Positions 4,001 to 58,107 of a stretch of DNA of 64,000 bases are shown one piece after another (within the stretch, counting starts at the first letter, position 1; each line of letters starts with the position of its first letter). Origin of the DNA: Candidatus Thiodiazotropha sp. (ex Monitilora ramsayi) (lineage in GTDB: Bacteria; Pseudomonadota; Gammaproteobacteria; Chromatiales; Chromatiaceae). Location: contig JAHXIO010000006.1 of the NCBI GenBank assembly GCA_025655595.1, positions 434,001 to 498,000 of the forward strand. Reading direction: 5' to 3'. A model generated the notes under the pieces. It was not told the DNA's origin. It saw only the letters and a program-made list of their open reading frames with translations, and made no database searches. A program made the translations under genes and the position numbers.

Positions 4001-7000
4001 GATGCCTTCACCAACAGGGGCATAACAGAGGGCGGCGCTGCGGTCTCGATCACCGCCACTGCGGGGGATGTGCGCAACAGCGGTGTGATCCGCGGCGGCG
4101 ATGTGGCGCTCAGCGCCACCGGTGGCGACGTGGTCAACGAAAACCTGGCACGGCGCGAGGCGCTGGTGGACGGATACACCACCCGTGAAGGCGCACGGGG
4201 GCAGATCGAGGCGAGCGGCGATCTCCTCATGGAAGGGGAGAATGTGGTGATGCAGGGCGGGACAAGCGCTGCCGCCGCCGGCACCGCTACCCTGCATGCG
4301 AGCGGGGATGTACGCCTGGAGGCACAGGCCTACAGCGATGAGCGACGCAGCTCCACCACCCGGCGCAGCGGCCTGTTCGGGGTCAATTCGGAGCGCACGG
4401 AGCGGGTGGAACGCACCACCCGGATCGAAGGCGCGCAGCTCAGCGGCGCGGGAGGTGTGAAGATCAATGCAGGACGGGATGTCCGCCTCATCGCCGCCGA
4501 GGTAGCCAGCGAACAGGGCGGTATCTCCATCGATGCCGGCCGTGAGGTGGCCATCGAGACCGCCAAGGAGGAGGTGTACGACTACGCCTCCACTACCCGC
4601 GAGCGCATCTTCAGCGAGAGCCGCGCCGATGCCACGGACCAGGGGCGTCTCGCCGCGTCAGCGGGTGCCGACATCTATTCCAAGCAGACCACCACGACCG
4701 AGAACCGGGACGAGACCGTCATCGGCAGCCGTCTGCAGGCCGGGTCGGGTATCAGCATCAACAGCGGGGGCAAGAGTACCCTGCGTAGTGCGGAACTGGA
4801 CGCCGGGCAGGGGCCGATCAGTATCAGCGGCAGCGAAGTGGAACTGCTGGCGGACCAGGAGAACGACCTGCACCGCACCGATACGGAAAATCTGACAGTC
4901 GGTGTGGCAGCGAGTGCCGATACCCGCGACCAGTTCACAGGTTTCAAAGGCCAATATCGCAACGATAAGGAGACGACGCAGAGTGTCACCCAGCGGACCA
5001 ACCGATTGCAGGGCGGCGGTGATGTGTCGATTACCGCGCATCGGGGTGATGTCCGGGAGCAGGGGAGCGAAATCCTCGCAGGGCGTGATATCGATGTCAG
5101 CGCCCGTGCCGGCAACGTGATCAGCGAGGCGGTCAAGGACAGCACCACCACCACCCGGGAGACAGAGACGATCGGGGGTGAGTTGGGCGCGGGTGCGCGT
5201 ACCGGCATCGCGTCGGATATCGAAACCACCGTTCGCAACGACCCTGCAGTGACCCGGGTCGATCCCAAGGACCTGGATGCAGACTCCTCGGCGATCTCCA
5301 GCGGCACGCTCTTCTATGGCGGCAGGGCCGGTGGTGAATATCAGCAGTCGCGCACCGAGCAGCTGGACGAAAAGGTGCGGACTTCCCGTTGGCAGGCGGG
5401 TGGCGATATCGCGATCGATGCCGCTGACGATGTACACCTGCAGGCGACCCAACTGGCAACCGACAGCGGTGATATCGCCTTACGTGCCGGTAACGAGGTA
5501 CGTATCGAAGCGGTGACCGAGCGTCACGAGAGCCGAAGCGAAAGCACGGGTGGCCAAGGCGAGCTGATCGCCTCGAACAACAGCGGCACCCTGGCGGGAC
5601 ACTACGATACCCAAAGCGAGTCGGAACGGCTGGGCATCTCCCGGACCTCCCACATCGATGCGGGTGGCGATCTGTCGATCCAGGCCGGGGGCGATCTCGC
5701 TGCGACGGGTGTGAAGGGCAAGGCCGGGGGCGATGTCCGCCTGCAGGCCGGCGGCGATTTGTCGCTCAATGCGGCCCACGATACCTATGAGCATAGTCGC
5801 AAAGGTATGGCGGCGGACGGGCGCCTCTCGCTCAAACGCAATATGAAGACCGGCCCGGTGGAGCGTGTCTACGACTTCGGTAGCGGCGGCGTCACGGGTC
5901 GCCAGTCCACCGGCAAGGGTGGGGCGCTGGAGGGTCAGTACCGCGGCGTCGATGAGAGCACCACCGGCGATATCGCCCGGGTGAGCGGTTTTGAGGCCGG
6001 GGGAGATCTCAGTGTCCGTGCCAAGCAGAACGTCATCCTGGAGGGTACCCAACTGAGTGCGCAGGGCGATGGCGAGATCACCGCTGAGCAGGGTGACATC
6101 GACTACCGGGCGGTGGAGGATCGCTTCTCCACAAAGCGGGACAACCTGCAGGTCTACGGCAAGCTGAGCGGGGCCAAGAGCAAGGACAAGCAGGCGGGTC
6201 CAGCAGCCACTGGTCGCCTTGGCAAGGCGTGGGGCGCCTTCGGTGTGGCCCGGGGCAAGGTCTCCGAGCTGACCATGAAATACAAACAGGACGGCACCAC
6301 CGTGGATATCGAGCAGACCGATAACGAGACCGTTCAGGCACGCGGCGGCAGTTTCGACTTCGGCGGCAAAGCGGTCCTGAAAGCCGGCAAGGACATCAAT
6401 CTGCAGGGCACCCAGGCGGTGGCCGGGGGACGCATGGTGGTGAATGCCGGAGGTGACCTGAATCTGGAGGCGGCGGAGAGCCGGACACGCATCGACACCA
6501 ACACCCTGAATGCCGGTGCCGGATTGCGCCAGACCGGTTTCATGCTGGGTTCCACCGACATCAATGCAACCCGGCATCAGAATGCCAATCTGCAGGGTGG
6601 TGAGGTCGTGACCCGAAGCGGTGGGGATACGACCCTGGCGGGCGCCGGGATCGAAGGCCGTATCGTAAACACCCATGTGGGTGGAGATCTGACGGTGGTG
6701 TCGAAAGTCGACTGGGTTGATTTCGAGGTGGGAGAGCAGGGCGTCATCCTCGGCACGGCGGTTGGCGAGGGCGGCGGTGGCCGGCTGGACGGATTCGCCG
6801 AGGTGATCCACTCCATCAAGAATGCACCCGATCACTTCAAATCTGAAAACAAGGCCGAGAGCGGCAACGTTCGGGGCGTCTCCTCTCCCAGCGGCATTCG
6901 CAGCCGACAGGGAACGGTGGTGAACGTGGAGGGTGAAACCCGTCTTGAAGGCGGCCATATCCTGCAGCAGGATGCCCCTGCAACGCTCAAGAGCCGCCGC

Positions 7001-7222
7001 GGCCTGCAAAAGCAGGATGTGGAAGCTACCAGCAGCGACGACACCACATCCACCACCGTAACCACACGCAACCTGGTGGGCCAGGGCGATGCGGGCAGCG
7101 TGACCGACGATCCGCTGCCGGGGCAGGGACAGGGCCAGAGTAAGTTTTTCACGGAGGAGGTTCAGCCCGCCATCGACGCAGAGGATGATGCCGTGCGTGA
7201 AATGATCGAGCAGCAACGCTAG
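1082..7222 (+). CDS. Filamentous haemagglutinin-type TpsA exoprotein
   Basis: A 2046-residue secreted adhesin-like protein. It has a long signal peptide (residues 1-40, with hydrophobic core SVCTALSWCLVLQPVAGIAA). The TPS secretion domain follows (about 45-290) with both hallmark motifs, NPNL (LANPNLQQ) and NPNGI (LANPNGITC). The rest is beta-helix-forming haemagglutinin repeat, rich in GGD, AGGDL and INAGRDV units. An insertion at about 570-800 contains several cysteines. The start is supported by AAGGA 7 bp upstream of the ATG. There is no VENN motif and no recognisable C-terminal toxin domain; the tail is acidic and polar (EEVQPAIDAEDD), so a contact-dependent inhibition role is not supported. 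It probably mediates attachment or aggregation and is exported by the TpsB encoded just upstream. Confidence 0.93.
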   Translation: MKRTGSTSTNRIHSHGAWRLSVCTALSWCLVLQPVAGIAAGVVVDTAAPANQQAQVTSANNGVPMVQIAAPNTNGLSHNQYTDFNVSSQGLILNNAQSATTTQLGGAVLANPNLQQAGATANIILNEVTSTNRSRLEGFQEVAGDRADLILANPNGITCRGCGFINTPRATLSTGRPLVDNGVLQGFEVRDGDILIEGEGVNAQGADAFDLVSRRLQLDGAVNGHDVHIVTGANRVDYVTRGATAIAGTGDAPAYLVDSSALGGVYADRIFLLGNEHGVGVRLRGDMATSVGEIALRNDGRIELTGNGLMAAGDLNVKSGEAALSMTDATLHGSEDLVLNSGALTMTRATTVADARAAVATAGNLTLSDSTLGGRTSLNIDVGHQMVMEDSLVASDQVLAIETTTLYVDAASRSGKGVVSGGDLTITATASGSDITNAGDILGRDITLRAPRFILNLATGLVSGDNSVDFDNLINRGQVIGGRIQRTGGDLTTNNFGELLAGADGISIQDSLINHPGALLHAIGDIELGAAGATVRNEQARIESYNGTVTLNAARFENIGATPELVWDYDNTVKVESGSAGGGALPIYSDCGTTADHFDAGRVGYRCARSVRRTHQEVGLGQLPDPARLLAAGDVRFTGGEFLNQQGIVAAGGDVAIDAGLFTNITVRRLTRDTTFDPSQPYNAGFTGYVYQDGGTDLLFCAANPDACFGGGRVKQFGIVDATWVFDNGHGPVDPAWGGVVQAGGTLSINATQVQNGHAPTGGAPYNGSAPASPTLPGVTSGLPNGGSLFVPTRDPGAVVLIETDPRFNLDLLLQGFGGSQLLLDELSGQDIDGQTSETVRLGDAYFETLLVRDEVMQLTGMRFIYDDLATDVGQFQQLMDNALTESQALDLRLGVALDQDQISKLNKDIVWMVETEYKGRKVLQPKVYLTERTLARLGRGETLTARNIEIDAASAFTNAGTMKANGTTRVTADAFTNRGITEGGAAVSITATAGDVRNSGVIRGGDVALSATGGDVVNENLARREALVDGYTTREGARGQIEASGDLLMEGENVVMQGGTSAAAAGTATLHASGDVRLEAQAYSDERRSSTTRRSGLFGVNSERTERVERTTRIEGAQLSGAGGVKINAGRDVRLIAAEVASEQGGISIDAGREVAIETAKEEVYDYASTTRERIFSESRADATDQGRLAASAGADIYSKQTTTTENRDETVIGSRLQAGSGISINSGGKSTLRSAELDAGQGPISISGSEVELLADQENDLHRTDTENLTVGVAASADTRDQFTGFKGQYRNDKETTQSVTQRTNRLQGGGDVSITAHRGDVREQGSEILAGRDIDVSARAGNVISEAVKDSTTTTRETETIGGELGAGARTGIASDIETTVRNDPAVTRVDPKDLDADSSAISSGTLFYGGRAGGEYQQSRTEQLDEKVRTSRWQAGGDIAIDAADDVHLQATQLATDSGDIALRAGNEVRIEAVTERHESRSESTGGQGELIASNNSGTLAGHYDTQSESERLGISRTSHIDAGGDLSIQAGGDLAATGVKGKAGGDVRLQAGGDLSLNAAHDTYEHSRKGMAADGRLSLKRNMKTGPVERVYDFGSGGVTGRQSTGKGGALEGQYRGVDESTTGDIARVSGFEAGGDLSVRAKQNVILEGTQLSAQGDGEITAEQGDIDYRAVEDRFSTKRDNLQVYGKLSGAKSKDKQAGPAATGRLGKAWGAFGVARGKVSELTMKYKQDGTTVDIEQTDNETVQARGGSFDFGGKAVLKAGKDINLQGTQAVAGGRMVVNAGGDLNLEAAESRTRIDTNTLNAGAGLRQTGFMLGSTDINATRHQNANLQGGEVVTRSGGDTTLAGAGIEGRIVNTHVGGDLTVVSKVDWVDFEVGEQGVILGTAVGEGGGGRLDGFAEVIHSIKNAPDHFKSENKAESGNVRGVSSPSGIRSRQGTVVNVEGETRLEGGHILQQDAPATLKSRRGLQKQDVEATSSDDTTSTTVTTRNLVGQGDAGSVTDDPLPGQGQGQSKFFTEEVQPAIDAEDDAVREMIEQQR

Positions 7223-7226
7223 CGAT

Positions 7227-7270
7227 CGGGTTTTGGTGTGTATCGGCATGACAAAACCCGTATTTTTTTT
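7227..7270 (+). terminator. Rho-independent terminator of the tps operon
   Basis: Starting 5 bp after the tpsA stop, a perfect 9-bp stem (CGGGTTTTG / CAAAACCCG, 7227-7235 and 7252-7260) with a 16-nt loop is followed by TATTTTTTTT. This is a textbook intrinsic terminator for rightward transcription. Confidence 0.9.
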
Positions 7271-7364
7271 CGAATGGGGAAGCCAAGGGATCATCTCTCG
7301 TTCATAATCCATGACTCGCCTTGGACCTGTTAACAGGCTCTAAAAAATGAGTATCACGGACTGA

Positions 7365-9581
7365 ATGGACAATAAAGCAGGTCAAGACGTAGCCTCACGC
7401 TGGCTCCCCCCCCTCGCGCTGCTGCCCCTGTTGAGCCTCGCTGGCCTGATTGCGCTGGGGATGGTCGCCCTGTCCCTCTGGTTGAGCCTGCAGCAGCCCT
7501 GGCTGGGGGTCGAAGCGCGGCCCGACCCGGCCGTGGCTGCGTGGGTCGTTACCGGTGTCGCTGAGGCGGCATCCACAGCTGGCTTCGAGGTGGGCGACCA
7601 GATAGTCGCAGTCGCTGCCGACGGCCATACGCCGGTGCGGTTTGAGGCGGGATTCGCGGTGGAGGACCCGGAAACGCTGCCCGATTTCCAGACTTACAAT
7701 CGGTTTTTTGAACGGCAGGATGCGCTCTTTCGGGTCTTGCTGGCAGAGAGGATCGAGCTGCAACTGGCCGATGGCAGGGTGCTCCCCTTGTCAGCGGCAC
7801 CGGCCCGCCCCTGGTCGACACTGCCGCTGCCCTTCTGGATCGTAAACGGTTTTGCCCTGTTTTGTATTCTCATGGGAGTGGGTATCTGGGGGCACAGGCG
7901 GGGACGCGCCACCACCCGCCTGCTGGTGCTGGGCAGTATCGGCATCCTGCTGACCTCCGCCACCGTAGGGGTCTATGGCTTTCGCGAGTTTGCCCTCTCC
8001 GGGGAGCTGTTCGCCTGGTTGCACCGGATCAATCGTTTCGGCGTCTATCTTTGGGTCTATTCCATGGTGACGCTGCTCTGGTTCTACCCCCGTCCTATCA
8101 GCCGGCTGCCTGCCGCCCAAGTGGTGTTCCTGCTTGCCTCGTTGCTCTGCCTCAACGAACTGTTGCAAGGGAGCGACTGGCCCCTGCACACCTTCTATCT
8201 GCCGGGGGCTTTCACTCCATTTGGTTTGGGTCTGGTGCTCGCCTCCCTGCAGTGGAGACGATCGAGGGGGTTGCCGCTGGACCGGGCGGCGATGCGTCTG
8301 TTTCTGATCAGTGTGTTGTTGACCAGCAGCATCGCACTGACCCTCTACGCGGCACCGCCGATGGTGGGACAGCCGCCGCTGGTCCCGCTCTGGGTCGGGC
8401 ATCTCTCCATGAACCTGGTCTACGGCGGTTTCGCCGTGGGTGTGTTGCGTTATCGTCTGTTCGATGTGGAGTGGTGGTGGCTGCTGCTGTGGCGCTGGTT
8501 CTTCGTGGCCGTGGCGTTTTTGGCCACTGATCTGGCACTGCTGGCCTGGTTCAACCTTCAACCCATGGATGCGCTTGGATTGTCCGTCGTACTGGTGGCC
8601 TGGTTATACATACCTTTACGCCAATGGGGCTGGAAACGCCTGTTCGGGCGCAAACGGAGTATGCTGGAAGACTACCTGCCGCAATTTCTTGAGGCCCAGT
8701 TCTCCCAAATCGACAACGGGGACGGCGAGCGGGCCTGGCTGACGCTGTTGCGCTCCGTCTTCCGGCCTCTCTCCCTGGAGCGGGTGGATCAGCGGGTAGA
8801 CGATACGCGTCTGGTGGATAACGGGCTGATGCTCCAGGTACCGGACAGTGGCGGCAGGATGGGTTGGCTGCTCTCGGGCAAACATCGCGGGGTCAATCTG
8901 TTCGATCGCCACGACTGCAGTCTGGCGGAGGGTCTGCTCAACCTGACCCGTCAGGCACGCCAATTACGTATGGAGAAGGAGCAGGCCGCCGAGCGGGAGC
9001 GCCAGCGTATCGCCCGCGATCTGCACGATGACGTGGGTGCGCAACTACTGACGGTGATTCACGGGGCGGAGTCGACCCATACGGCGAAAGAGGCGCAGGA
9101 AGCCCTGCGTGCGCTGCGCGAATCGATCTATGCTCTGCGCCAGGAGAAGCCCATCCTCTGCAGAGATCTTTTGGCCGATTGGCGTCACGAGGTGCTGAAT
9201 CGGCTGGAGGTGGCGGGTGTCGAACTGCGGTGGCATGACGAAGTTTCGCAAGACGCCTGTTTCGTCACTGGTCGGCAGCGCATCAATCTGACCCGTATGC
9301 TGCGCGAGGCGGTGAGCAATCTGCTGCGTCATGGCGCGCCGAATAACGTCGGTATTGCAGTTACCCATGCCGACGGCAACCTTGAACTGCAAGTCAACGG
9401 TGATGCTGTTGCCGAGCCCGTCGAGACGTGGAGAGAGGGTGCGGGAATGGCGGGCATACGCAGCCGCGCCGGGGAGATCGGTGCGCATGTGGCATGGCAG
9501 TCCGATGACGTCGGCACGAAATTTATCCTGACGATGCTGCTCGATGCGGAGATAGAGAATGAAAAGCGCGCTCCTGCTTGA
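7365..9581 (+). CDS. Membrane sensor histidine kinase, NarL/LiaS class (HisKA_3)
   Basis: A 738-residue inner-membrane kinase. It has one N-terminal membrane helix (about 17-42), a roughly 100-residue periplasmic segment that looks PDZ-like (VVTGVAEAASTAGFEVGDQI), and then a block of about six to seven membrane helices between residues 155 and 400. The cytoplasmic part has a HisKA_3 dimerisation/phosphoacceptor motif, RQRIARDLHDDVGAQLL, with phosphorylatable His554. A C-terminal HATPase domain follows, with an N-box-like LREAVSNLLRHG and GAGMAGIRSRAGEIG. It overlaps the response-regulator gene by 23 bp, so the two are a translationally coupled two-component pair. The ligand is unknown. The PDZ-plus-polytopic arrangement suggests sensing at or within the envelope; that is inference. 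Confidence 0.9.
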   Translation: MDNKAGQDVASRWLPPLALLPLLSLAGLIALGMVALSLWLSLQQPWLGVEARPDPAVAAWVVTGVAEAASTAGFEVGDQIVAVAADGHTPVRFEAGFAVEDPETLPDFQTYNRFFERQDALFRVLLAERIELQLADGRVLPLSAAPARPWSTLPLPFWIVNGFALFCILMGVGIWGHRRGRATTRLLVLGSIGILLTSATVGVYGFREFALSGELFAWLHRINRFGVYLWVYSMVTLLWFYPRPISRLPAAQVVFLLASLLCLNELLQGSDWPLHTFYLPGAFTPFGLGLVLASLQWRRSRGLPLDRAAMRLFLISVLLTSSIALTLYAAPPMVGQPPLVPLWVGHLSMNLVYGGFAVGVLRYRLFDVEWWWLLLWRWFFVAVAFLATDLALLAWFNLQPMDALGLSVVLVAWLYIPLRQWGWKRLFGRKRSMLEDYLPQFLEAQFSQIDNGDGERAWLTLLRSVFRPLSLERVDQRVDDTRLVDNGLMLQVPDSGGRMGWLLSGKHRGVNLFDRHDCSLAEGLLNLTRQARQLRMEKEQAAERERQRIARDLHDDVGAQLLTVIHGAESTHTAKEAQEALRALRESIYALRQEKPILCRDLLADWRHEVLNRLEVAGVELRWHDEVSQDACFVTGRQRINLTRMLREAVSNLLRHGAPNNVGIAVTHADGNLELQVNGDAVAEPVETWREGAGMAGIRSRAGEIGAHVAWQSDDVGTKFILTMLLDAEIENEKRAPA

Positions 9582-17652: not shown

Positions 17653-17796
17653 TTACTGTTAGCATCTATTGGATGCCATGCTAATACAGCCAGTATAATT
17701 TCCGAATGAGCCAATGAAGCCGATGCTGTAAATCGAGCTGTAATTTACATAATTGGTTCTCAAGGGCTCGAACCCAAGCAAATAAGGGGGGCTGAA

Positions 17797-17953
17797 CCGA
17801 ATGGCACTTACTTAAGCGGACCTTGTAGGGTGATATGAGAATTACTCTTATTTTCTCCATCGCAATGGTGGGGCCCTGCCCCACAAAATAGGCTGGAATC
17901 CAACTCGAATCCTTCTATTGCGATTGATATCCCTTTAAGTAAGTACCATTCGG
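17797..17953. mobile_element. MITE-like non-autonomous element, 157 bp, with 7-bp target duplication
   Basis: Terminal inverted repeats of 20 bp (CCGAATGGCACTTACTTAAG at 17797-17816; its complement with 2 mismatches at 17934-17953) bound a 157-bp segment. The flanks carry an identical 7-bp direct repeat, GGCTGAA, at 17790-17796 and 17954-17960, abutting both ends exactly as a target-site duplication would. The interior holds a perfect 7-bp hairpin (GTGGGGC CCT GCCCCAC, 17868-17884) and no ORF. This is the structure of a miniature transposable element mobilised in trans. I cannot assign the parent IS family. Confidence 0.8.
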
Positions 17954-18155: not shown

Positions 18156-19211
18156 ATGCTGTTGCTTCTTGTCTACATTTCGATAGCCCTGGGCTTTTCC
18201 TTCCTCTGTTCCATCGCCGAAGCGGTGATTCTGAGCGTTACCCATCCCTATATCTCGGTGTTGGAGCAGGAGGGTAACGGCGCCGCCAAGCTACTCAAGC
18301 GGCTGAAGCAGAACATCAACGATCCGCTGGCGGCGATCCTGACCCTGAACACGACGGCACACACCATCGGTGCGGCCGGTGCCGGCGCGCAGGCTACGGT
18401 GGTGTTCGGCGATGCCTATCTGGGGGTGGTGTCTGCGGTCCTCACCCTGATGATCCTGATCTTCTCGGAAATCATTCCCAAGACTATCGGAGCGGTCTAC
18501 TGGCGGCAGTTGGCGCCGTCCACGGCCTATCTGCTGAAATTTCTCATCTGGATACTCTATCCGTTCATCAAGATGTCCGCGGTGCTGACGCAACTCCTGT
18601 CGCGGGGGCATCAGCACGGGCAGTTTCGGCGGGACGAGTTTACCGCAATGGCGCAGGCCGGTGTGGAGGAGGGCAAGCTGCTGGAGCGCGAGTCACTCAT
18701 CCTCAACAACCTCTTCCTCCTGAGAGAAGCCAGGGTCAGCGATGTGATGACACCCCGCCTGGTGGTTTTCTCGCTGGATGAGGCGTTGTCGGTCGCGGAC
18801 TATTTCAACATGCACGGCGACAGCCGCTTCTCCCGTATTCCCATCTATGATGGGCAACGCGACCACGTGACCGGGTTCGTCCTGCGCAGCGACCTGTTGC
18901 TGGCCCATGCCCGTGGTAACTCAGATAAACCGCTTTCCATCTATCGCCGGCATCTGGCCGCACTGCCCGACACCAGTTCCCTGCAGAATGCTTTCGAGAT
19001 GCTGCTTGAGGAGCGCAGCCACATCATCCTCATCGTCGATGAGTACGGTGGCATGGAGGGCATACTGACCCTGGAGGACGTGCTGGAGACCCTGATCGGT
19101 ATCGAGATCGTCGACGAGATGGACAAGGTCGAGGATATGCGCAAGTTGGCGCGCAGACTCTGGCGTAAGCGGGCCGCTGAGATGGGACTCGATATCGACT
19201 CCCAGGGATGA
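18156..19211 (+). CDS. CNNM/CorC-type transporter-like protein (DUF21 + CBS pair)
   Basis: A 351-residue membrane protein. The N-terminal DUF21 domain (about 1-140) has three to four membrane helices and the signature SIAEAVILSV followed by LAAILTLNTTAHTIGAA. A CBS pair follows (about 190-320), starting at VSDVMTPRLVVFSL and including SRFSRIPIYDG and the second CBS end VDEYGGMEGILTLEDVLETLIG, which closes with a conserved acidic EIVDE. There is no CorC_HlyC C-terminal domain, so this is the short form. Family members have been linked to Mg2+/Co2+ export and resistance. It is preceded by 536 bp of intergenic DNA carrying the MITE-like element. Confidence 0.88.
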   Translation: MLLLLVYISIALGFSFLCSIAEAVILSVTHPYISVLEQEGNGAAKLLKRLKQNINDPLAAILTLNTTAHTIGAAGAGAQATVVFGDAYLGVVSAVLTLMILIFSEIIPKTIGAVYWRQLAPSTAYLLKFLIWILYPFIKMSAVLTQLLSRGHQHGQFRRDEFTAMAQAGVEEGKLLERESLILNNLFLLREARVSDVMTPRLVVFSLDEALSVADYFNMHGDSRFSRIPIYDGQRDHVTGFVLRSDLLLAHARGNSDKPLSIYRRHLAALPDTSSLQNAFEMLLEERSHIILIVDEYGGMEGILTLEDVLETLIGIEIVDEMDKVEDMRKLARRLWRKRAAEMGLDIDSQG

Positions 19212-19667
19212 GAATGTCCTTTTCCGTATTGGGCTCCGGTCAGTGGAACCAGACGGTGGGCAGGAGGCGATTTCTGGATCTCTTGTTAGTATCCATAATT
19301 GGATGGCTAAATATCACACAGTCTTGCGCACTAATGAAAAAATATTGTTACCTCAACCCGAGTCATACCCCAATAGGTTCGCACGTTCGCCGCTACCGAG
19401 TTGACCGGTTCCGAGCATAATAAATCTGTCCCGGTTTTCGGGGGCTGGAACTCAGTAGCAAGGGGCCGGCCCCTGGGCTAGGACTAGTAGGGGGGCTGGT
19501 CCTGTGGCCGGGTTTTCCGGAACTTGGAGTTCTGTCAATAACTGTACGTTAATGTAAAATACTTTCTACACTGGCGGATAAAATGCTTATAAACAGCAAT
19601 CTCTACGTTAATATTTTATCTTGAATCCAAGTAGTTATATTTTTTGATCTAGTGGCGGGGTTTGGTG
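19212..19667. other. Structured, non-coding junction before the AT-rich accessory region
   Basis: No convincing gene. 19425-19540 is GC-rich and packed with short self-complementary pieces: CCCG-GTTTT-CGGG, the palindrome GGGGCCGGCCCC (19462-19473), AGGAC...GTCCT, CCGG-GTTTT-CCGG and GAACT-TGG-AGTTC. From about 19540 the DNA becomes abruptly AT-rich. Two direct copies of TACGTTAAT (19545-19553 and 19604-19612, 59 bp apart) lie upstream of the nuclease-like gene and may be a regulator site or part of its promoter. The composition switch probably marks the left boundary of an acquired segment. Confidence 0.5.
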
Positions 19668-20396
19668 ATGCTTCTCTCTCTTAGTGCAGATTCTAATCCC
19701 CCAAAACACGACAGTGAAGTATTGTTCACCCGCACAGCTTCATCCATGCCTTTCACATCTGAAGAAGCCCTAGTCCAGGATTTCTCAAGATATGAAAAAT
19801 TTAGATCAAATGATTCATATGGCCACATATTGGAATTAGATGCAGGTAATGGTATCGCTGATATTGGTATCTATGAGCTTAGAGCAGATTGGCAAAAATA
19901 TGTTGATATTACGTCATTACGTCCACAGTGGACCTACCCACTAGTTCGTCTCCCGTACAGGAAAGTTTTTCAGGTAGATGATTTTCGAGCGCTTGCTTGC
20001 GTATCACACCAGACAGCAAAAAAGATACTAAGAGAATACTCATTAGCTGGGTTCTGCAACAAAACTTCTCGAGGCTGGATCAAATTGCACCAACCCAGAG
20101 CTCCTGTTAATCGTATATATGCTATTGAAGCAAAGTTAAGAGATTGGCGTAAAGCACTATATCAAGCGAGTAGATATCATGACTTTGCACATCAGTCTTG
20201 GGTACTTATAGATCATTATTACTGTGCAACAGCTCTAAAAAATAGATCTGAGTTTATTAGGCGTAACGTAGGACTCGCCTCGATTGAGAAAGATGGAAAA
20301 TTAATAATCCATATAAACTCAAAAATTAACTCACCTAAATCACAATTTAGATACTGGTATGCTGCAAATCTAATCTTAAAGCAGAACCTAAGATAA
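19668..20396 (+). CDS. PD-(D/E)XK nuclease-like protein with helix-turn-helix-like insert
   Basis: 242 residues from ATG 19668; in-frame GTG and TTG codons lie 3 and 6 bp upstream. The segment AIEAKLRDWRKALYQASRY (Glu154, Lys156, Gln166) is a good match to the E-x-K...Q core of PD-(D/E)XK endonucleases, in the form seen in many uncharacterised proteins with ExKL.DW..AL.QA..Y. It is followed by a buried strand (SWVLID). The upstream catalytic Asp would be Asp65 in GNGIADIGIYEL. Between the two halves, residues about 100-138 read like a winged helix (VDDFRALACVSHQTAKKILREYSLAG). It converges on and overlaps by 9 bp the kinase-partner operon. Base composition is AT-rich unlike its neighbours, suggesting transfer. 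The nuclease fold is motif-based inference; activity and target are unknown. Confidence 0.6.
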   Translation: MLLSLSADSNPPKHDSEVLFTRTASSMPFTSEEALVQDFSRYEKFRSNDSYGHILELDAGNGIADIGIYELRADWQKYVDITSLRPQWTYPLVRLPYRKVFQVDDFRALACVSHQTAKKILREYSLAGFCNKTSRGWIKLHQPRAPVNRIYAIEAKLRDWRKALYQASRYHDFAHQSWVLIDHYYCATALKNRSEFIRRNVGLASIEKDGKLIIHINSKINSPKSQFRYWYAANLILKQNLR

Positions 20397-21569
20397 GAAA
20401 GAGCGATAAAACCAGTTTAGAGAGTCAAGCCAAGGCTCTATATGATCACCTCTGCCATGCCTATCCAAATCGAGCGGCCACCGCTCAATTTCATAGTAGT
20501 TTTCCTGCGCGTTTCTAAGCAAATCTCTTAAGATTTCATACCTTTGACTGTCAGATACTTCAGATAATGTATCGATCTGTTCCTGAAAGTTTAGAAAATA
20601 ATGTTTATACAGGCCAGGATAATTAAAATGCGGATCTATTGCAGATTCAAAAGCCTCCTCTGCATATGTAGTTTCAGAATAAATCCTATCCCATACTGAT
20701 CCCAACCCATCTCTTATCTCTACTGCCTGCGGATATTGAATCCAATTCAATAACCCCGGCATATATAACCTGGCTCTTGGGCCGCGTCTATCCTCATCTG
20801 ATACCACAAATTTATCAACCGAGAACATTCTAGTATTTTCGTAAGCACCAAATGTTATTTCACATCCTTCGATTAGAGTAAACAACAATGCTTCTGTATT
20901 ACAATGCCCCACTAGAACCTTCAGGCCAGCATCTCGTAACTCATAGACCGATGTCAGGTATTTTTTTAAAAAATTATGATCCTGTATCTGTTTTGATGCC
21001 CGGTCATCCTCAACCAGTAAATAAACGCCATCAATTTCAGGATAACTAGTTATCCAATTTAAGATATTGGTCCTATATCGATCATGCATAAGCATCCTGC
21101 TCGTTAATGGCAATGTTAAAAATATTTCCTTACCAACTCCCTCTTCTTCAATAGCTTGTAAAAATGGATGAACTGTATAAACTTCTTGTTTCTCAATATA
21201 GTCCGGTTCCATATCAGAAAAATGCCTGGCAGGTATCATAATCCTATGGAAATCTTTTTCTAATTGAAATCCTAGGCAACTGCGCGCTGACTCTATAGCT
21301 AGAGTTGAAAATTCTAATGTATCAAATCCCCCAGATATTACTTCTGGGAAGAATTCGTATGTCTTTAATTTTTTCTTTTGTGAATTTGGAAGATAATATT
21401 GTGGATCAAAAATACTTGCCTGAATAATATCATCGCCCAATTTATCTATAGTTGGCTGACTCTGATGTACCGGACTCAGAATTAGCCCATCACCACATTC
21501 ATCGTCTCTATATGAATCAATATTCCAGTTCGCATTATGACCACATTGATGTAATAGAGTAATTGGCAT
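20388..21569 (-). CDS. Uncharacterised 393-residue protein coupled to a Ser/Thr kinase
   Basis: I do not recognise a family. Hydrophobic beta strands alternate with helices: FHRIMIPARHF, EIFLTLPLTSRML, IDGVYLLVEDD, LKVLVGHCNTEALLFTL and EITFGAYENTRMF. This rhythm would suit a TIM-barrel or similar alpha/beta fold. MPITLLHQCGHNANWNIDSY at the N-terminus and a Trp/Tyr-rich C-terminus (EPWLDSLNWFYRSF) are distinctive. There is no signal peptide or membrane helix. The start codon follows the kinase stop by 2 bp, and its ribosome-binding site (AAGGAG) lies inside the last kinase codons, so the two proteins are translationally coupled and probably act together. It may be the kinase's substrate or effector. 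It is AT-rich, as is the rest of the island. Confidence 0.7.
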   Translation of the reverse strand: MPITLLHQCGHNANWNIDSYRDDECGDGLILSPVHQSQPTIDKLGDDIIQASIFDPQYYLPNSQKKKLKTYEFFPEVISGGFDTLEFSTLAIESARSCLGFQLEKDFHRIMIPARHFSDMEPDYIEKQEVYTVHPFLQAIEEEGVGKEIFLTLPLTSRMLMHDRYRTNILNWITSYPEIDGVYLLVEDDRASKQIQDHNFLKKYLTSVYELRDAGLKVLVGHCNTEALLFTLIEGCEITFGAYENTRMFSVDKFVVSDEDRRGPRARLYMPGLLNWIQYPQAVEIRDGLGSVWDRIYSETTYAEEAFESAIDPHFNYPGLYKHYFLNFQEQIDTLSEVSDSQRYEILRDLLRNAQENYYEIERWPLDLDRHGRGDHIEPWLDSLNWFYRSFLS

Positions 21570-21571
21570 TC

Positions 21572-22483
21572 CTAGCTCCTTATGGCTTCAATTTCTACGA
21601 CTAAATCTTCAATTTTTCTGTGTCGTTTATATGGATGTTTTTCCATCATTTTTTGAATAATTCTCGAAAAATCCTCACTAGCTAAGCCTAAGGAATGTAA
21701 GGACTCTGGAATCTTATTGCATACTTTATCAAGAACATCTTCTACAAGATCATCTTCTTCTTGATATGGATTAGACCCTGTTAACAACTCATAACATAGA
21801 GTTGCGAGTGCAAAGAAATCACTTTTAAAGGAAATGTTTCGCTTATCGTTTATTGCTTGCTCAGGACTTGCATATTTCGGCGTACATGGCCCATGTGCTA
21901 CCGCAGAAAAAGTTACCCCACTCGCTCCCTCTTCCCTAACAATGCCCAAATCTATTACCACCACATCATTGCTGGGTGTGATTAGAATATTTGCGGGTTT
22001 CAAATCACGGTGGACTAGAGGCGGCCTTCCTTCCCAAAGAGGCTTGAGAATTAGAATTAATTTTGTAAGAAGATCAATGACACTATTTTCATCACAAAAA
22101 TTTTCGGCAAGCTCACTAAGCGGTTGTGCGTCAATTCTTTCTTCAATAGTGACAAATAGTTTTGGATTTAACTTAACCTCTGTATCAGGATCTTCTGAAA
22201 TGACATCATCGTAAAGTAGGGTCGGATATCCTGGATGCGCTAGCCTGTTTAGAATTTCAATCTCTCTTTGGATATAAGCAATAGCTTGCGCAGATACCCC
22301 TTCAGATACCTTTAGTACTACATTGCCCCACTCGGGCCACTCATTTTCGAGAGCTGGATCTGGCTCGAAATGGCAAAAATATACGACACGTTGCCCAGAA
22401 GGAGCAGGTACATCGTCTATTACCAAGCCTGGATATATACGGGTTAGAAAGCCCCGAAAGTCTTCGTTATCTAATATAGCCAA
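21572..22483 (-). CDS. Eukaryotic-like Ser/Thr protein kinase, atypical
   Basis: 303 residues from TTG 22483, chosen because AAGGAG (22490-22495) sits 6 bp upstream; a TTG at 22510 would add 9 residues and has no good RBS. Kinase subdomains are present: VVLK (Lys58), the alpha-C Glu74 (QREIEIL), LVHRDLKPANIL (Asp160 and Asn165), VIDLG in place of DFG (Asp178), YASPEQ and the SDFFALATLCYELLTG helix. The glycine-rich nucleotide loop is not recognisable; the equivalent stretch reads PSGQRVVYFCHF, although the VAIK-type Lys is kept. No membrane helix or sensor domain is present, so this is a soluble kinase. Its target is unknown; the coupled downstream protein is the first candidate. Confidence 0.88.
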   Translation of the reverse strand: MAILDNEDFRGFLTRIYPGLVIDDVPAPSGQRVVYFCHFEPDPALENEWPEWGNVVLKVSEGVSAQAIAYIQREIEILNRLAHPGYPTLLYDDVISEDPDTEVKLNPKLFVTIEERIDAQPLSELAENFCDENSVIDLLTKLILILKPLWEGRPPLVHRDLKPANILITPSNDVVVIDLGIVREEGASGVTFSAVAHGPCTPKYASPEQAINDKRNISFKSDFFALATLCYELLTGSNPYQEEDDLVEDVLDKVCNKIPESLHSLGLASEDFSRIIQKMMEKHPYKRHRKIEDLVVEIEAIRS

Positions 22484-22510
22484 AACACGCTCCTTGTGAC
22501 TGATATACAA

Positions 22511-22838
22511 GCATATACGTTGAGCTATAGTATCAAAGACTTACAGCTCTTAAGTTATAAAGGCTCTCAGATATAATACCAGATAAGATTTATCACTTAG
22601 GATTCTAAGTCTTGATTCTCTGTCTGGTAATCATTAATAGGATCGTCTACATATTGTCTACATTTAAATGCGTGGCTAGTAGAAAATCATGTAACCATAT
22701 TGATTATATGGAGCCAGCGAGAGGATTCGAACCCAGACCAGCTGATTGCAAAAAAACAACTATGCAGGGTGGGAAGTTTTGATATGTCTACATGCCAAAT
22801 TCATGATTAAGCAAAGTGACATAACAGGTTGTTTTTAT
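22511..22838. other. Intergenic region with recombinase attachment-site traces
   Basis: No gene. Three copies of GTCTACAT (22645-22652, 22656-22663, 22786-22793) flank a tRNA 3'-end fragment. Repeats of this form are common as arm-type binding sites beside tyrosine-recombinase att sites. The DNA is AT-rich up to about 22830 and returns to the local chromosomal composition at the tRNA. No integrase gene remains in the window. The kinase operon's promoter must lie at the left side of this stretch, but I cannot place it. Confidence 0.5.
22709..22752 (-). pseudogene. tRNA 3'-end fragment (tRNA-Thr-like), probable att-site remnant
   Basis: On the minus strand the sequence runs from TTTGCAATCAGCTGGTC through GGGTTCGAATCC to CGCTGGCTCCA. 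That is the anticodon-stem 3' side, T-loop and acceptor 3' side plus CCA of a tRNA. It resembles the 3' half of gammaproteobacterial tRNA-Thr(UGU), from memory. No matching 5' half precedes it, and the T-stem has mismatches. Integrative elements duplicate tRNA 3' ends, so this is best read as an old attachment-site copy. Confidence 0.6.
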
Positions 22839-22915
<77 letters not shown>

Positions 22916-22980: not shown

Positions 22981-24831
<1,851 letters not shown>

Positions 24832-24942
24832 CTTTTACCTTGAATGTGTACGAGAGCTACTAGTCCAGGCTGAACTCACCATATTAGCACAGATCTAGGG
24901 ATGTTTTCCACTAATGTACGGGTTTTCCACGAGATCCATGAC

Positions 24943-26706
24943 TCAACTCTCCGATCCGTCATCTGTCTCTGAGGGGAGGGTGCCCGGGTAACGTTTTTTC
25001 AGTGCATCCAGCTCAGTTTCAGACAATTCGCTGGGTTTGAGATTCCCCGGCAGTGGGCGACTCTCCTTGCGAAATTGGCTGTTAAGTTTGACCAGTGCGT
25101 CTCTCAGTTCCGTCTCCTGGTCCATTTCGGGCAGGGTGAAAGTATGCTCCGCAAGCTTGTTGAGATGAGCGAAGTGCTCGCTATCCCGCCAGCGCTCCAG
25201 TAGCGCCGCCTTGTTAAGCGTAGGTTGGGAGCGAATAATTTCAAGCAGTTGGGACAAAATCTGTGTACCCGTCGTTTGCCACTGTTTCCAGCTGTCATCC
25301 ACGCTGTCTGCCGTAGTCACTAAATGGGGATTATCAAGCAGAAGTGCAATAGCGAAGCGTATCGGCGTGGGACGCTGGACTGCCTGGCGCTGTCTTGCCT
25401 GCCGGGACGCTCTGCCGGTTCCAGCGCTTTGGGTGTCGAGGTGTCCGTCACGGATACCGACCAGATTCTCCAGATGTTGATACATCATGCGCCGGAACAG
25501 TCCGGGCGGAAGTCGTTCCAGGTAGGGCTTGGCGAGCTCGGCAAGATGTGCGCGACCGTCGATGGTCTCCATTTTTACCTGGCCGGTGAGCTGTTGAAAG
25601 AGAAACTCGGAGAGTGGCAGGGCGCCGTCAATACGGACTTCGAAGGCCTCCCGGCCCTCTTTTCTGACCAGTGTGTCGGGATCCTCACCGTCCGGCAGGA
25701 ATAAAAATCTCGCCTCGCGACCCTCGCGCATCACCGGCAGCGTGGTCTGTAGCGCCTTCCAGGCTGCATCTTTGCCCGCCCGGTCGCCATCGAAGCAGAA
25801 CACCACCTCCGAGCAGGTTCGAAAAATGAGTTCGAGATGGTCCTGTGTGGTGGCTGTACCCAGGGTGGCAACCGCATTGAGGATCCCGTATTGGGCCAGC
25901 GCCACCACGTCCATGTAGCCCTCGACCACCAGCAGTCGCTGCAGTTTGTTGTTGGCCTTGCGTGCTTCGTAAAGACCGTAGAGCTCGCGTCCCTTGTGGA
26001 ACAAGGGTGTCTCCGGTGAGTTGAGATATTTGGGCTTGTCATCCCCCAACACGCGTCCGCCGAAGCCGATGACGCGTCCCCGGGAGTCGCGGATTGGAAA
26101 GACGATCCGGTGCCGGAAGCGGTCGTAACGTTTACCCGATTCCGGTTCACTGGTCAGGCCGCATTGGCTGAGGCGTTCGATTGCGGCCTGGTCCTGACCC
26201 AGAATGGATAACAGGTTGTCCCATCCCGGCGGTGCGAAGCCGAGATGAAATCTGGCGGCGATTTCTCCGGTAAGGCCACGGTGTTTGAGGTAGTCGACGG
26301 CCTGATAGACTTCCGGATGCTGACGCAACTGTTGCTGATAGAAGCGGGAGGCCTCTTCCATCAAGTCGTAGAGAGGACGCAGATCGGGGCCCTGGTCATA
26401 ACCCGCTTCTCGCGGCACTTCCAGGCCTGCGGACTCGGCGAGTGACTCCACGGCTTCGACAAAGCCCAGGTTGTCATACTCCATCAGAAAGCCAATGGCG
26501 GAGCCATGGGCGCCGCAGCCGAAGCAATGGTAGAACTGTTTCTGCTGACTGACGGTGAAAGAGGGGGTCTTTTCGTCGTGGAAGGGGCAGCAGGCCTGAA
26601 AATCGCGTCCGGCCTTTTTCAAAGGCACCCGGCGGTTGATGATCTCCACCACGTCAACGCGGCTGATCAGTTCGTCAATAAACTGGGAGGGGATTCTACC
26701 GGGCAT
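24943..26706 (-). CDS. dnaG: DNA primase
   Basis: 587 residues, normal length. The N-terminal CHC2 zinc finger (Cys40, His43, Cys61, Cys64) is in CCPFHDE...FYHCFGCG. The TOPRIM catalytic core includes LLVVEGYMDVVALAQYG and VVFCFDGDRAGKDAAWKAL, whose acidic residues bind metal. The C-terminal helicase-interaction domain occupies roughly 430-587. It synthesises RNA primers at the fork in complex with DnaB. It sits in the conserved macromolecular synthesis operon between yqeY and rpoD. Confidence 0.98.
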   Translation of the reverse strand: MPGRIPSQFIDELISRVDVVEIINRRVPLKKAGRDFQACCPFHDEKTPSFTVSQQKQFYHCFGCGAHGSAIGFLMEYDNLGFVEAVESLAESAGLEVPREAGYDQGPDLRPLYDLMEEASRFYQQQLRQHPEVYQAVDYLKHRGLTGEIAARFHLGFAPPGWDNLLSILGQDQAAIERLSQCGLTSEPESGKRYDRFRHRIVFPIRDSRGRVIGFGGRVLGDDKPKYLNSPETPLFHKGRELYGLYEARKANNKLQRLLVVEGYMDVVALAQYGILNAVATLGTATTQDHLELIFRTCSEVVFCFDGDRAGKDAAWKALQTTLPVMREGREARFLFLPDGEDPDTLVRKEGREAFEVRIDGALPLSEFLFQQLTGQVKMETIDGRAHLAELAKPYLERLPPGLFRRMMYQHLENLVGIRDGHLDTQSAGTGRASRQARQRQAVQRPTPIRFAIALLLDNPHLVTTADSVDDSWKQWQTTGTQILSQLLEIIRSQPTLNKAALLERWRDSEHFAHLNKLAEHTFTLPEMDQETELRDALVKLNSQFRKESRPLPGNLKPSELSETELDALKKRYPGTLPSETDDGSES

Positions 26707-56830: not shown

Positions 56831-57137
56831 AATAGTACGACAATTATCCTTGATAAAGCGGATAATGTAACTTTGCAAGAACAGGAAGTATTTGTTAGCC
56901 TGCTTATACGTCGAAAAATTGACTGATACTACGTTTTTCTCTTGAAAAGGATTTTCAATGAATACACTCCCCCTCCCTCGATATTTAGTACTGTGACAAC
57001 TATGCCGTTTGTGGCTCGGGTCGCAGAAAATGTAAGTGATTGAATCTCAGGATCCCTGAAAAACAACCCCCATGTGGTATTCGGTCATTGCATCATTTTC
57101 CCAGATATTGATATCGCTTTTTATTCACGAGGCAAAT
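56831..57137. other. Intergenic region after tgt
   Basis: A weak hairpin, ATTATCC / GGATAAT, at 56843-56866 just after tgt lacks a U-tract and may be a poor terminator. The rest is AT-rich with no supported gene; the open frame upstream of 57138 has no RBS. Confidence 0.35.
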
Positions 57138-57776
57138 ATGGAAGTTCGTCGTATATTCGTTTTCCTACTGTTAATTTTTTCTGTTGCTGCGGTGTTGTCA
57201 AGTGATGAACCTGTAGATTTGTCAAAACTGATCTGCGATACACCCGCATGTGACATGGTTGCAGAGATGGGTGACTACGAAGCATACAAACTGGAACACA
57301 CAATTAAGTTGAAGACCGATGCGTTTTCTCTGCAAGTGCCGGATGAACCACTAAACAAGATAATCGCTTTGGAGGATGAGATCATCCTCTTCTATAAAGA
57401 TGGACAACGCCTTCTTATTGCTGAGGACTCAGGCCCGGATGTCGGAGAGTTAAAGAATGTAAAGGTTAACCAGTTTCCACAGATTGTTTTCACAAAAACA
57501 ACAAAAGACGAAGAGCCTGAATCGCATTCAGATCGTTTTTTCTGGAAAGTTGCACTGTATCAGAAACCTGCTTTTTTCAATCAGGCAAGCGAAGTTAGTT
57601 ATGCGGAAAAAGATGGTGTGAGCTACTTTTTATCCAATAGCAATGAATTGGGATTTTCGGGTAGTGCCATGGTAAGCGCTGAAAATGTAAAGGATAGATT
57701 TTTACGTATTAAAGCGATGAATATGGAGTACGGAAAGTTTAGGAAAATTGCATCAAACGTTGTTGTGGAAAAGTAG
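57138..57776 (+). CDS. Exported protein of unknown function
   Basis: 212 residues from ATG 57138, with GAGG 7 bp upstream; an in-frame ATG at 57072 would place a second hydrophobic run before the signal peptide. Signal peptide MEVRRIFVFLLLIFSVAAVLSS. The mature part has a cysteine pair (LICDTPACDMVAEMGDY) and a beta-rich pattern with a hydrophobic strand KIIALEDEIILFYKDGQ. No family recognised. It is more AT-rich than the flanking housekeeping genes. It ends 12 bp before the next, frameshifted gene. Confidence 0.7.
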   Translation: MEVRRIFVFLLLIFSVAAVLSSDEPVDLSKLICDTPACDMVAEMGDYEAYKLEHTIKLKTDAFSLQVPDEPLNKIIALEDEIILFYKDGQRLLIAEDSGPDVGELKNVKVNQFPQIVFTKTTKDEEPESHSDRFFWKVALYQKPAFFNQASEVSYAEKDGVSYFLSNSNELGFSGSAMVSAENVKDRFLRIKAMNMEYGKFRKIASNVVVEK

Positions 57777-57788
57777 GAGGATAAACGC

Positions 57789-58107
57789 ATGGAGCTCACG
57801 GAAAGAGATATTGAAGATGCAAAATGTATTATGGCCTTTTTTTGGGGGGAGAAGTGCGGGTGATTGGAAGGTGAATAAAGAGGTTTTAGATGTAATAGGC
57901 GAAATGTTAGCCAGGGAGAGTAACTGTTCCAAAGCCATGGATTTAGTGCCGAGGCCTGGTTTTAGGATCGACGCCGGTTATATAAAACGGCAACTCAGAG
58001 ATATAGCTAGAAGAGTTACATCAGGAGATCACTCATATTATGCCTGCCAGATAGCAGTTTCCTATAAGTACAAGGATAGAGTGAAGCTGGCCAGTGAAGG
58101 GCTGTAA
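57789..58107 (+). pseudogene. Small gene of unknown function, frameshifted in a T7-G6 run
   Basis: The well-placed start is ATG 57789, with AGGAGG 8 bp upstream. It reads MELTERDIEDAKCIMAFFWG and stops after 24 codons. The coding-like remainder, from GGRSAGDWKVNKEVLDVIGE to the stop at 58107, is in another frame. The two join cleanly if one base is removed at TTTTTTTGGGGGG (57837-57849), giving ...CIMAFFGGRSAGDWK... and a protein of about 105 residues. It may be a sequencing error, a phase-variable off state, slippage-dependent expression or a decaying gene. No family recognised; it is coupled to the exported protein upstream. Confidence 0.65.

Follow-up and report, generated by a model that had tools for sequence, protein, structure and literature searches.

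KIN, P and NUC: a candidate mobile immune module in an AT-rich cargo slot of Candidatus Thiodiazotropha

What do a protein kinase, a partner without a recognised family and a nuclease-like protein do together in an AT-rich block of a bacterial genome? The question arises in a 64,000-nt stretch of Candidatus Thiodiazotropha sp. (ex Monitilora ramsayi), hereafter the window (contig JAHXIO010000006.1, positions 434,001 to 498,000), where the genes for a kinase (KIN), a 393-residue protein (P) and a nuclease-type protein (NUC) lie side by side. Sequence comparison leads us to propose, at a probability of roughly 60%, that the three constitute one mobile immune module and a candidate anti-phage system.

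KIN, P and NUC as a linked gene set

KIN is encoded on the minus strand (21572..22483) as a soluble Ser/Thr kinase of 303 residues. The open reading frame (ORF) extends to a first TTG at 22510 (21572-22510, 312 aa), and the second TTG, at 22483, is the preferred start, with AAGGAG located 6 nt upstream. Counted from there, the HRD aspartate is D160 (D169 in the 312-aa ORF), in agreement with the numbering used in a preliminary description of this DNA, which had drawn attention to the three ORFs. The protein matches Pfam Pkinase (PF00069; E 3.5e-23, 82.8 bits against a cut-off of 31.7) and retains the HRD and DLG motifs, the beta-3 lysine and the alpha-C glutamate. Across the alignment of its relatives, K67 and E83 are present in 28/31 rows and HRD and DxG in 29/31, the remainder being gaps from cut or short copies. 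Judged by these motifs, KIN is a Hanks-type Ser/Thr kinase with conserved catalytic residues. Its top match in PADLOC is PD-T4-6 (E 1.9e-31); 34 families match, the best 25 of the 34 being mostly kinase models, and the kinase models of PglW and MAD6 are also among the library matches.

P (20388..21569, minus strand, 393 aa) follows closely: its ATG begins 2 nt past the kinase stop, and its ribosome-binding site (AAGGAG, 21576..21581, minus strand) lies within the kinase gene, just as the preliminary description had it. NUC (19662..20396, plus strand) is 244 aa long from a TTG, or 242 aa from an alternative ATG at 19668, and converges on P with a 9-nt overlap. It had been called nuclease-like with an internal helix-turn-helix-like segment, and both traits hold up. 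Residues E58, G64, D67, E156, K158 and Q168 are invariant in 24/24 aligned sequences, and all 24 rows carry the D...(D/E)xK catalytic signature of the PD-(D/E)XK superfamily; from these motif residues, NUC is a predicted PD-(D/E)XK-type nuclease. The helix-turn-helix-like segment is a winged helix inserted between D67 and E156 (PDB 2d1h, E 3.4e-4; Pfam MarR_2 in 8/24 members at E up to 1, best 7.9e-5). Pfam nuclease models barely detect the family (PDDEXK_9 in 1/24 members, E 0.0075), and PADLOC returns weak, mostly HTH-type matches only (best 0.00097). Short homologues from which the winged-helix insert is absent were observed in loci L026 (1606-2148), L155 (5860-6390) and L156 (5968-6435).

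A P-profile search recovered 26 loci from the genome collection and two viral loci from IMG/VR, and profiles for all three proteins place KIN, P and NUC side by side in 28/28 of these. Because the profiles were built iteratively from their own matches, their final E-values lack independence; before any iteration, the seed profiles matched 34 P proteins, 31 KIN proteins and 31 of the eventual 32 NUC proteins. Three gene orders occur, namely KIN>P<NUC (the window, L006-L024, L032, L033), KIN>P>NUC (L004, L025, L026, L030) and NUC>KIN>P (L027-L029, L031), so that the co-occurrence is not that of one frozen operon. As labelled, the hosts are Gamma- and Betaproteobacteria, metagenome-assembled genomes (MAGs) of Bacillota, Ignavibacteria, Phycisphaera and Auribacterota, and three haloarchaea; the Natribaculum plasmid appears as both L002 and L027. 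The preliminary description had left the nuclease as either an effector or a second system. The linkage in three gene orders places it in the same system as KIN and P; the idea of a second, separate system is rejected because of the 28/28 linkage and because a query with the NUC profile also recovers the triads.

The distance matrices of the three genes correlate closely (Mantel r 0.86-0.94 over 20 non-redundant full loci, uncorrected for the species tree; 0/2000 permutations as high), and all three are under purifying selection, with dN/dS of 0.02-0.15 in 16 of 21 gene comparisons from seven pairs (several of these 16 with dS >1; the other five were saturated). Cut or broken loci were omitted from this set, which comprises 27 full loci, or 20 after a 90% identity filter, and near-identical or cut sequences were likewise omitted from alignments A3 (n=25) and A4 (n=24). 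A plasmid of Priestia megaterium encodes KIN and P as one fused protein of 677 aa, with NUC convergent behind it; the fusion joins KIN to P physically.

The distribution of the module is patchy. Elsewhere in the order, P was found in 3/194 genomes, including one with the RES-linked type described below, and in the rest of the phylum sample it was found in 0/397. The three further loci from the order-level search with window P are L004, a full triad, L005, without KIN and NUC, and L003, which is cut by a contig end and whose kinase is not assessable. Across the 195 genomes of the order, the NUC profile gives strong matches only in G000, G058 and G034, the carriers of the first branch of P, and weak partial matches in three others. 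The kinase-linked branch of P is represented by one plasmid record among 72,556 (three P queries), and blastn with the Silvania cassette, which detects near relatives only, found none in E. coli genomes. A single-protein tblastn search of the phage collection returned no relative of P, and a scan of viral contigs with window P alone found nothing. The NUC profile recovered seven loci from viral contigs, four of them full triads: L151 and L152, which are L032 and L033 again, and the new L154 and L157. L153 is cut by a contig end. The viral kinase of L033 (7444-8004) lacks an N-lobe in frame and represents a degraded copy or a sequence error.

The cargo slot and the neighbourhoods of the module

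The cassette occupies a variable cargo slot (19440..22820), an AT-rich island whose GC content of 0.390 is the minimum among 304 windows of equal length and compares with 0.591 and 0.575 in the flanking genes (18156-19211 and 22981-26706). An abrupt AT-rich block had been reported at 19540..22760; the island is indeed sharp-edged, and slightly wider. Two genomes of the same genus (L060 and L075) match the window at 92% identity from 18,033 to 19,436-19,439 and again from 22,821-22,834 to ~23,600, the last position being the limit of the fetched sequence on the right flank. Since both genomes share these flanks and carry other cargo between them, the edges of the slot are sharp. The cargo of L060 is Gabija (GajA 937 bits, GajB 821 bits), and that of L075 is a Schlafen/AlbA_2 protein with other ORFs. 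In its own right, the latter slot (genome G055; L075 2644-5138) encodes, with the Schlafen/AlbA_2 protein, a 274-aa membrane-bound-looking protein and a 110-aa ORF, and is candidate defence cargo; neither of the two ORFs scanned (the Schlafen/AlbA_2 protein and the 274-aa protein) had a PADLOC match.

The right edge of the slot is marked by the 3' end of tRNA-Met(CAT) (22839..22915, minus strand), a hotspot for integration in this genus: the relatives L062, L063 and L069 carry stretches of 46-51 bp that copy its 3' part exactly. This hotspot adjoins rpoD, and the copies lie ~9.5-16 kb distant. A copy of the tRNA-Met 3' end was searched for at the left edge of the island and not found. Within the slot, a 47-bp relic of the 3' part of tRNA-Thr(TGT) (22706..22752, minus strand; 92% identity to the tRNA-Thr of the same genome) adjoins the kinase side of the cassette and is a probable attachment-site footprint. 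In G058, of the same genus, NUC and a partial P share a contig with genes for an integrase and Rep, and the contig ends in 46 bp that are 98% identical to tRNA-Thr(CGT). Together, the relic and this contig indicate that the cassette probably arrived on integrative elements; the ORFs of the window island include no integrase, and the att-like relic is the only such trace there.

A calcineurin-like phosphatase gene adjoins the triad in 9/28 loci and belongs to two subfamilies, a protein-phosphatase-like type (L010, L015-L018, L032) and another found in the haloarchaeal L027-L029 (five of the nine were checked against Pfam). The window has no such gene. Two phosphatase subfamilies beside one kinase module suggest that dephosphorylation matters. 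The phosphatase, the KIN-P fusion and a second branch of P, linked to Xre and RES genes, are features beyond those of the preliminary description. On the 157-kb viral contig of L033, a further phosphoesterase (1-752) is encoded ~7 kb away from the triad.

The preliminary description had also seen in the cassette a mobile, defence-type gene set, and example loci bear this out through mobile or defence neighbours. Defence genes comprise a CBASS phospholipase and cyclase (L030), a type II methyltransferase (L031), a DrmMI/type IIG-like enzyme (L027), an HNH protein (L018) and PDC-S05 (L015). Mobile carriers are indicated by a MobA/MobL relaxase (L011), TnsD and TniB of a Tn7-like element (L010), an integrase (L028) and a primase-helicase on a P4-like satellite (L032), whose domains we take to be of the P4 type. 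Among the viral contigs, L157 begins with a tyrosine recombinase, and the triad of L154 lies between terminase-like and portal-like ORFs (named by eye; the terminase-like neighbour had no PDB match).

Two further features of the window lie outside the slot. To its left, an intergenic tRNA-like T-arm fragment (17763-17776, AGGGCTCGAACCCA) is followed by 24-nt inverted repeats (88%) in 17797-17953, possibly another integration scar. At 57001-58000, a second low-GC stretch (0.416) shows strong GC skew (0.212).

P and its two branches

P had been described as a protein without a recognised family, and the searches agree. At E up to 1, window P matches nothing in PADLOC, PHROGs or NCBIfam (the NCBIfam and PHROGs scans covered the window proteins) and, in Pfam, only SgrT (0.043, below the cut-off). 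Its relatives yield scattered weak library matches only, with best PADLOC E-values of 0.034 for 25 members and 0.018 for a set of 11 from the other branch and the fusion, and PDB searches return designed or unrelated chains only. Family-wide, D55 is conserved in 42/42 members, P113 and G241 in 41/42 and H323 in 37/42. About eight strand-helix units can be made out by eye, and a TIM-type barrel is possible. In a Rhizobacter MAG (L020 2316-3467), P is split into two ORFs by a stop, reflecting a degraded copy or a sequence error.

A second branch of P came to light through L005, a relative without a kinase, and has matches in 15 plasmid records. Eight of the 15 were opened: seven encode P followed by RES, and one is the Priestia fusion. 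Xre is annotated between P and RES in 6/7 of the former; a profile of these six Xre genes detects Xre in L113, L005, L108, L109 and L110, and RES was found by Pfam in L005 and by profile in L108, L109 and L110. The arrangement P-Xre-RES, with P as the first gene, is present in 11/11 distinct second-branch loci examined, one of which (L115) adjoins annotated QatA and QatB. Compared through profiles that share no member, the two branches can be aligned along their length (hhalign E 6.1e-14, probability 98.2%), and single sequences of both also match each other (E 6e-5 and 9e-5). Viewed by itself, the conserved triad (L113-L119, L005, L108-L110), on plasmids and in genomes of the same family, adds one upstream gene, a member of the P family, to a RES toxin-antitoxin pair. 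Between P and the RES proteins themselves, hhalign gave a weak signal (16-17% with both branches together, ~6% otherwise), which was set aside as insufficient.

This branch bears on what had been asked of P homologues, namely whether they always follow a kinase and whether they lie in defence islands. Kinase linkage holds for all 28 first-branch loci and fails for the second branch, which stands with Xre-RES. Occurrence apart from kinases is one half of what the preliminary description had named as telling against it; the other half did not appear, as the second branch lies on plasmids and beside toxin or defence genes, and not as a housekeeping family.

A third arrangement is found in the viral locus L156, where NUC is accompanied by a probable P and no kinase. 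The probable P matches a profile of both branches at E 4e-9 and that of the first branch at 3e-4; hhalign gives 22% against kinase-linked P alone and 66% against the RES branch. As a side observation, this region (5968-7633) encodes a very divergent probable P containing CNCPVC and is possibly a minimal form of the system. P thus appears to be the common part of kinase-nuclease, probable nuclease-only and RES versions, between which the effectors are swapped.

Cysteine motifs raise the question of kinship with tRNA-guanine transglycosylases (TGTs). CxCxxC occurs in the Priestia fusion and in L156, cysteine-rich variants occur in 8/11 RES-linked members, and window P has no such motif; some members of the family carry CxCxxC...His, as do the fetched archaeal TGTs. 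A TGT relationship is not supported: compared with bacterial and archaeal TGT profiles, P reaches an hhalign probability of at most 0.6% among the matches listed, no better than the kinase, nuclease and phosphatase controls, and a profile search of the PDB with P found no TGT chain. The transglycosylase idea is kept as speculation. Somewhat doubtful, and put forward tentatively, is the broader possibility that P represents a new prokaryotic immune-sensor family with interchangeable effectors, namely a kinase and nuclease with the phosphatase as reset, probably a nuclease on its own, or a RES toxin with its Xre antitoxin. In this family an enzyme-derived pocket, perhaps a remote, remodelled TGT-like barrel around the invariant Asp55, would read a nucleobase or nucleotide signal of infection.

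Proposed function, rival readings and known systems

As the only part common to the kinase-nuclease, probable nuclease-only and RES versions, P is the best candidate for the sensor-regulator. It would recognise a product of infection, and KIN, bound or fused to it, would phosphorylate P, NUC or both, and so set or trigger a switch that the phosphatase, in loci having one, may reverse. Once released, NUC would be guided by its winged helix to cut DNA, either that of the invader or that of the whole cell, as in abortive infection.

The genes could instead serve the upkeep of the element that carries them. Read as a toxin-antitoxin or addiction module, NUC would be the toxin, and P with KIN its neutraliser, with element maintenance rather than antiviral immunity as the main role, although the two roles overlap. 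Plasmid, satellite and integrative contexts fit such a module, as do the seat of the second P branch with an Xre-RES toxin-antitoxin pair and the small size of NUC, which could be toxic. Three to four genes, often with a separate convergent nuclease unit, would however be unusual, the kinase and phosphatase imply signal input, and Gabija fills the same slot in a sister genome; we regard this reading as rather unlikely. A restriction-like role, or exclusion between elements, would have NUC cut foreign or modified DNA through its winged helix or P, with phosphorylation only tuning the activity. The winged helix inserted in most NUC proteins would suit this role, as would carriage on viral contigs and a P4-like satellite and the proximity of an integrase. 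Against it, the window island lacks a methyltransferase, so that self-protection would need another cue, and the short NUC homologues in L026, L155 and L156 have no winged-helix insert, leaving the idea decidedly improbable. An ordinary regulatory or stress operon, composed of a kinase, an enzyme and a DNA-binding protein without an immune role and only incidentally mobile, could draw on the DNA-binding fold of NUC and on the frequent pairing of kinases with phosphatases in signalling, but the nuclease residues of NUC are invariant, and the patchy distribution (3/194 in the order, 0/397 in the phylum sample) and carriage on viral contigs make such an operon very improbable indeed.

Several observations weigh against the immune module that we favour. 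Five of the 28 loci have a damaged gene: contig ends truncate L025, L026 and L030, L020 has the stop-split P, counted as present, and the kinase of L033 is the 186-aa ORF without an N-lobe. Because every seed of the P profile came from a kinase-linked locus, the search favours triads, and the Mantel correlation carries no species-tree correction. Among the viral loci, L155 has NUC without a detectable KIN or P, and L156, with P and NUC alone, suggests that the kinase is dispensable. The neighbours, selected by eye ahead of the family scans, are examples without an enrichment statistic; two of the ten scanned, both in L075, had no PADLOC match. By eye, several triads have ordinary-looking chromosomal surroundings, such as L019 near rpoA, and L010 has ubiquinone-type genes on its other side.

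Should an immune module be the right reading, separate 'hypothetical' genes would become one testable candidate immune system in bacteria, haloarchaea and viral contigs. It would offer a defence switch run by phosphorylation whose writer (KIN), likely eraser (the phosphatase), effector (NUC) and shared regulator (P) are all genetically visible, and the KIN-P fusion, the kinase-less version and the effector-swapped RES version would serve as natural experiments. P would also open up a broader family of likely defence regulators that no model in the searched libraries represents.

Among catalogued systems, no PADLOC-DB 2.0.0, NCBIfam, Pfam or PHROGs family corresponds to window P, and KIN is matched by the kinase models of other systems. 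The preliminary description knew of no described system with this gene set; these libraries hold none, and a literature search, which left subscription journals and preprints largely uncovered, found no paper naming the KIN-P-NUC gene set. PD-T4-6 and Stk2 are single-kinase phage defences, PglW belongs to BREX type 2 and MAD6 to MADS; all four resemble KIN as Hanks-type Ser/Thr kinases in defence contexts. Single-kinase defences such as PD-T4-6 act as stand-alone genes, whereas KIN, a short protein in its own right, neighbours P and NUC in 28/28 P-profile loci; the kinase is absent from L156 and fused to P in Priestia. Unlike BREX and MADS, the window island has no PglX, PglZ or MAD partner gene. 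In passages from two papers, PglW and DndF are described as combining Ser/Thr/Tyr kinases with NERD nucleases, and a BREX-related system as including a TGT, all of which differ from the triad (PMC12839542, PMC10853773).

With PD-(D/E)XK restriction-type nucleases, NUC shares the E-D-ExK-Q signature and a DNA-binding domain, but its winged helix sits inside the nuclease core and the window offers no methyltransferase partner: the slot has three long ORFs, those of KIN, P and NUC, and no methyltransferase model matches any of them. RES toxins of RES-Xre modules consume NAD+, and the second branch of P heads a P-Xre-RES triad, whereas the window slot has a kinase and a nuclease in place of Xre and RES, neither of which is present; a literature search limited in its coverage found no paper naming a third gene of this kind for RES-Xre. 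Gabija uses the same chromosomal slot in a genome of the same genus, with unrelated genes. Cap10 of type IV CBASS is described as a transglycosylase-family enzyme (PMC11996544). DpdA and Cap10 are TGT relatives in defence; some P proteins have the CxCxxC...His motif of the fetched archaeal TGTs, and P can be read by eye as a series of strand-helix units, whereas window P lacks the cysteines, and the profile comparison that found no relationship covered TGTs proper. What is familiar here is a mobile, multi-gene, nuclease-type defence candidate, and what is unfamiliar is the gene set and, within it, P.

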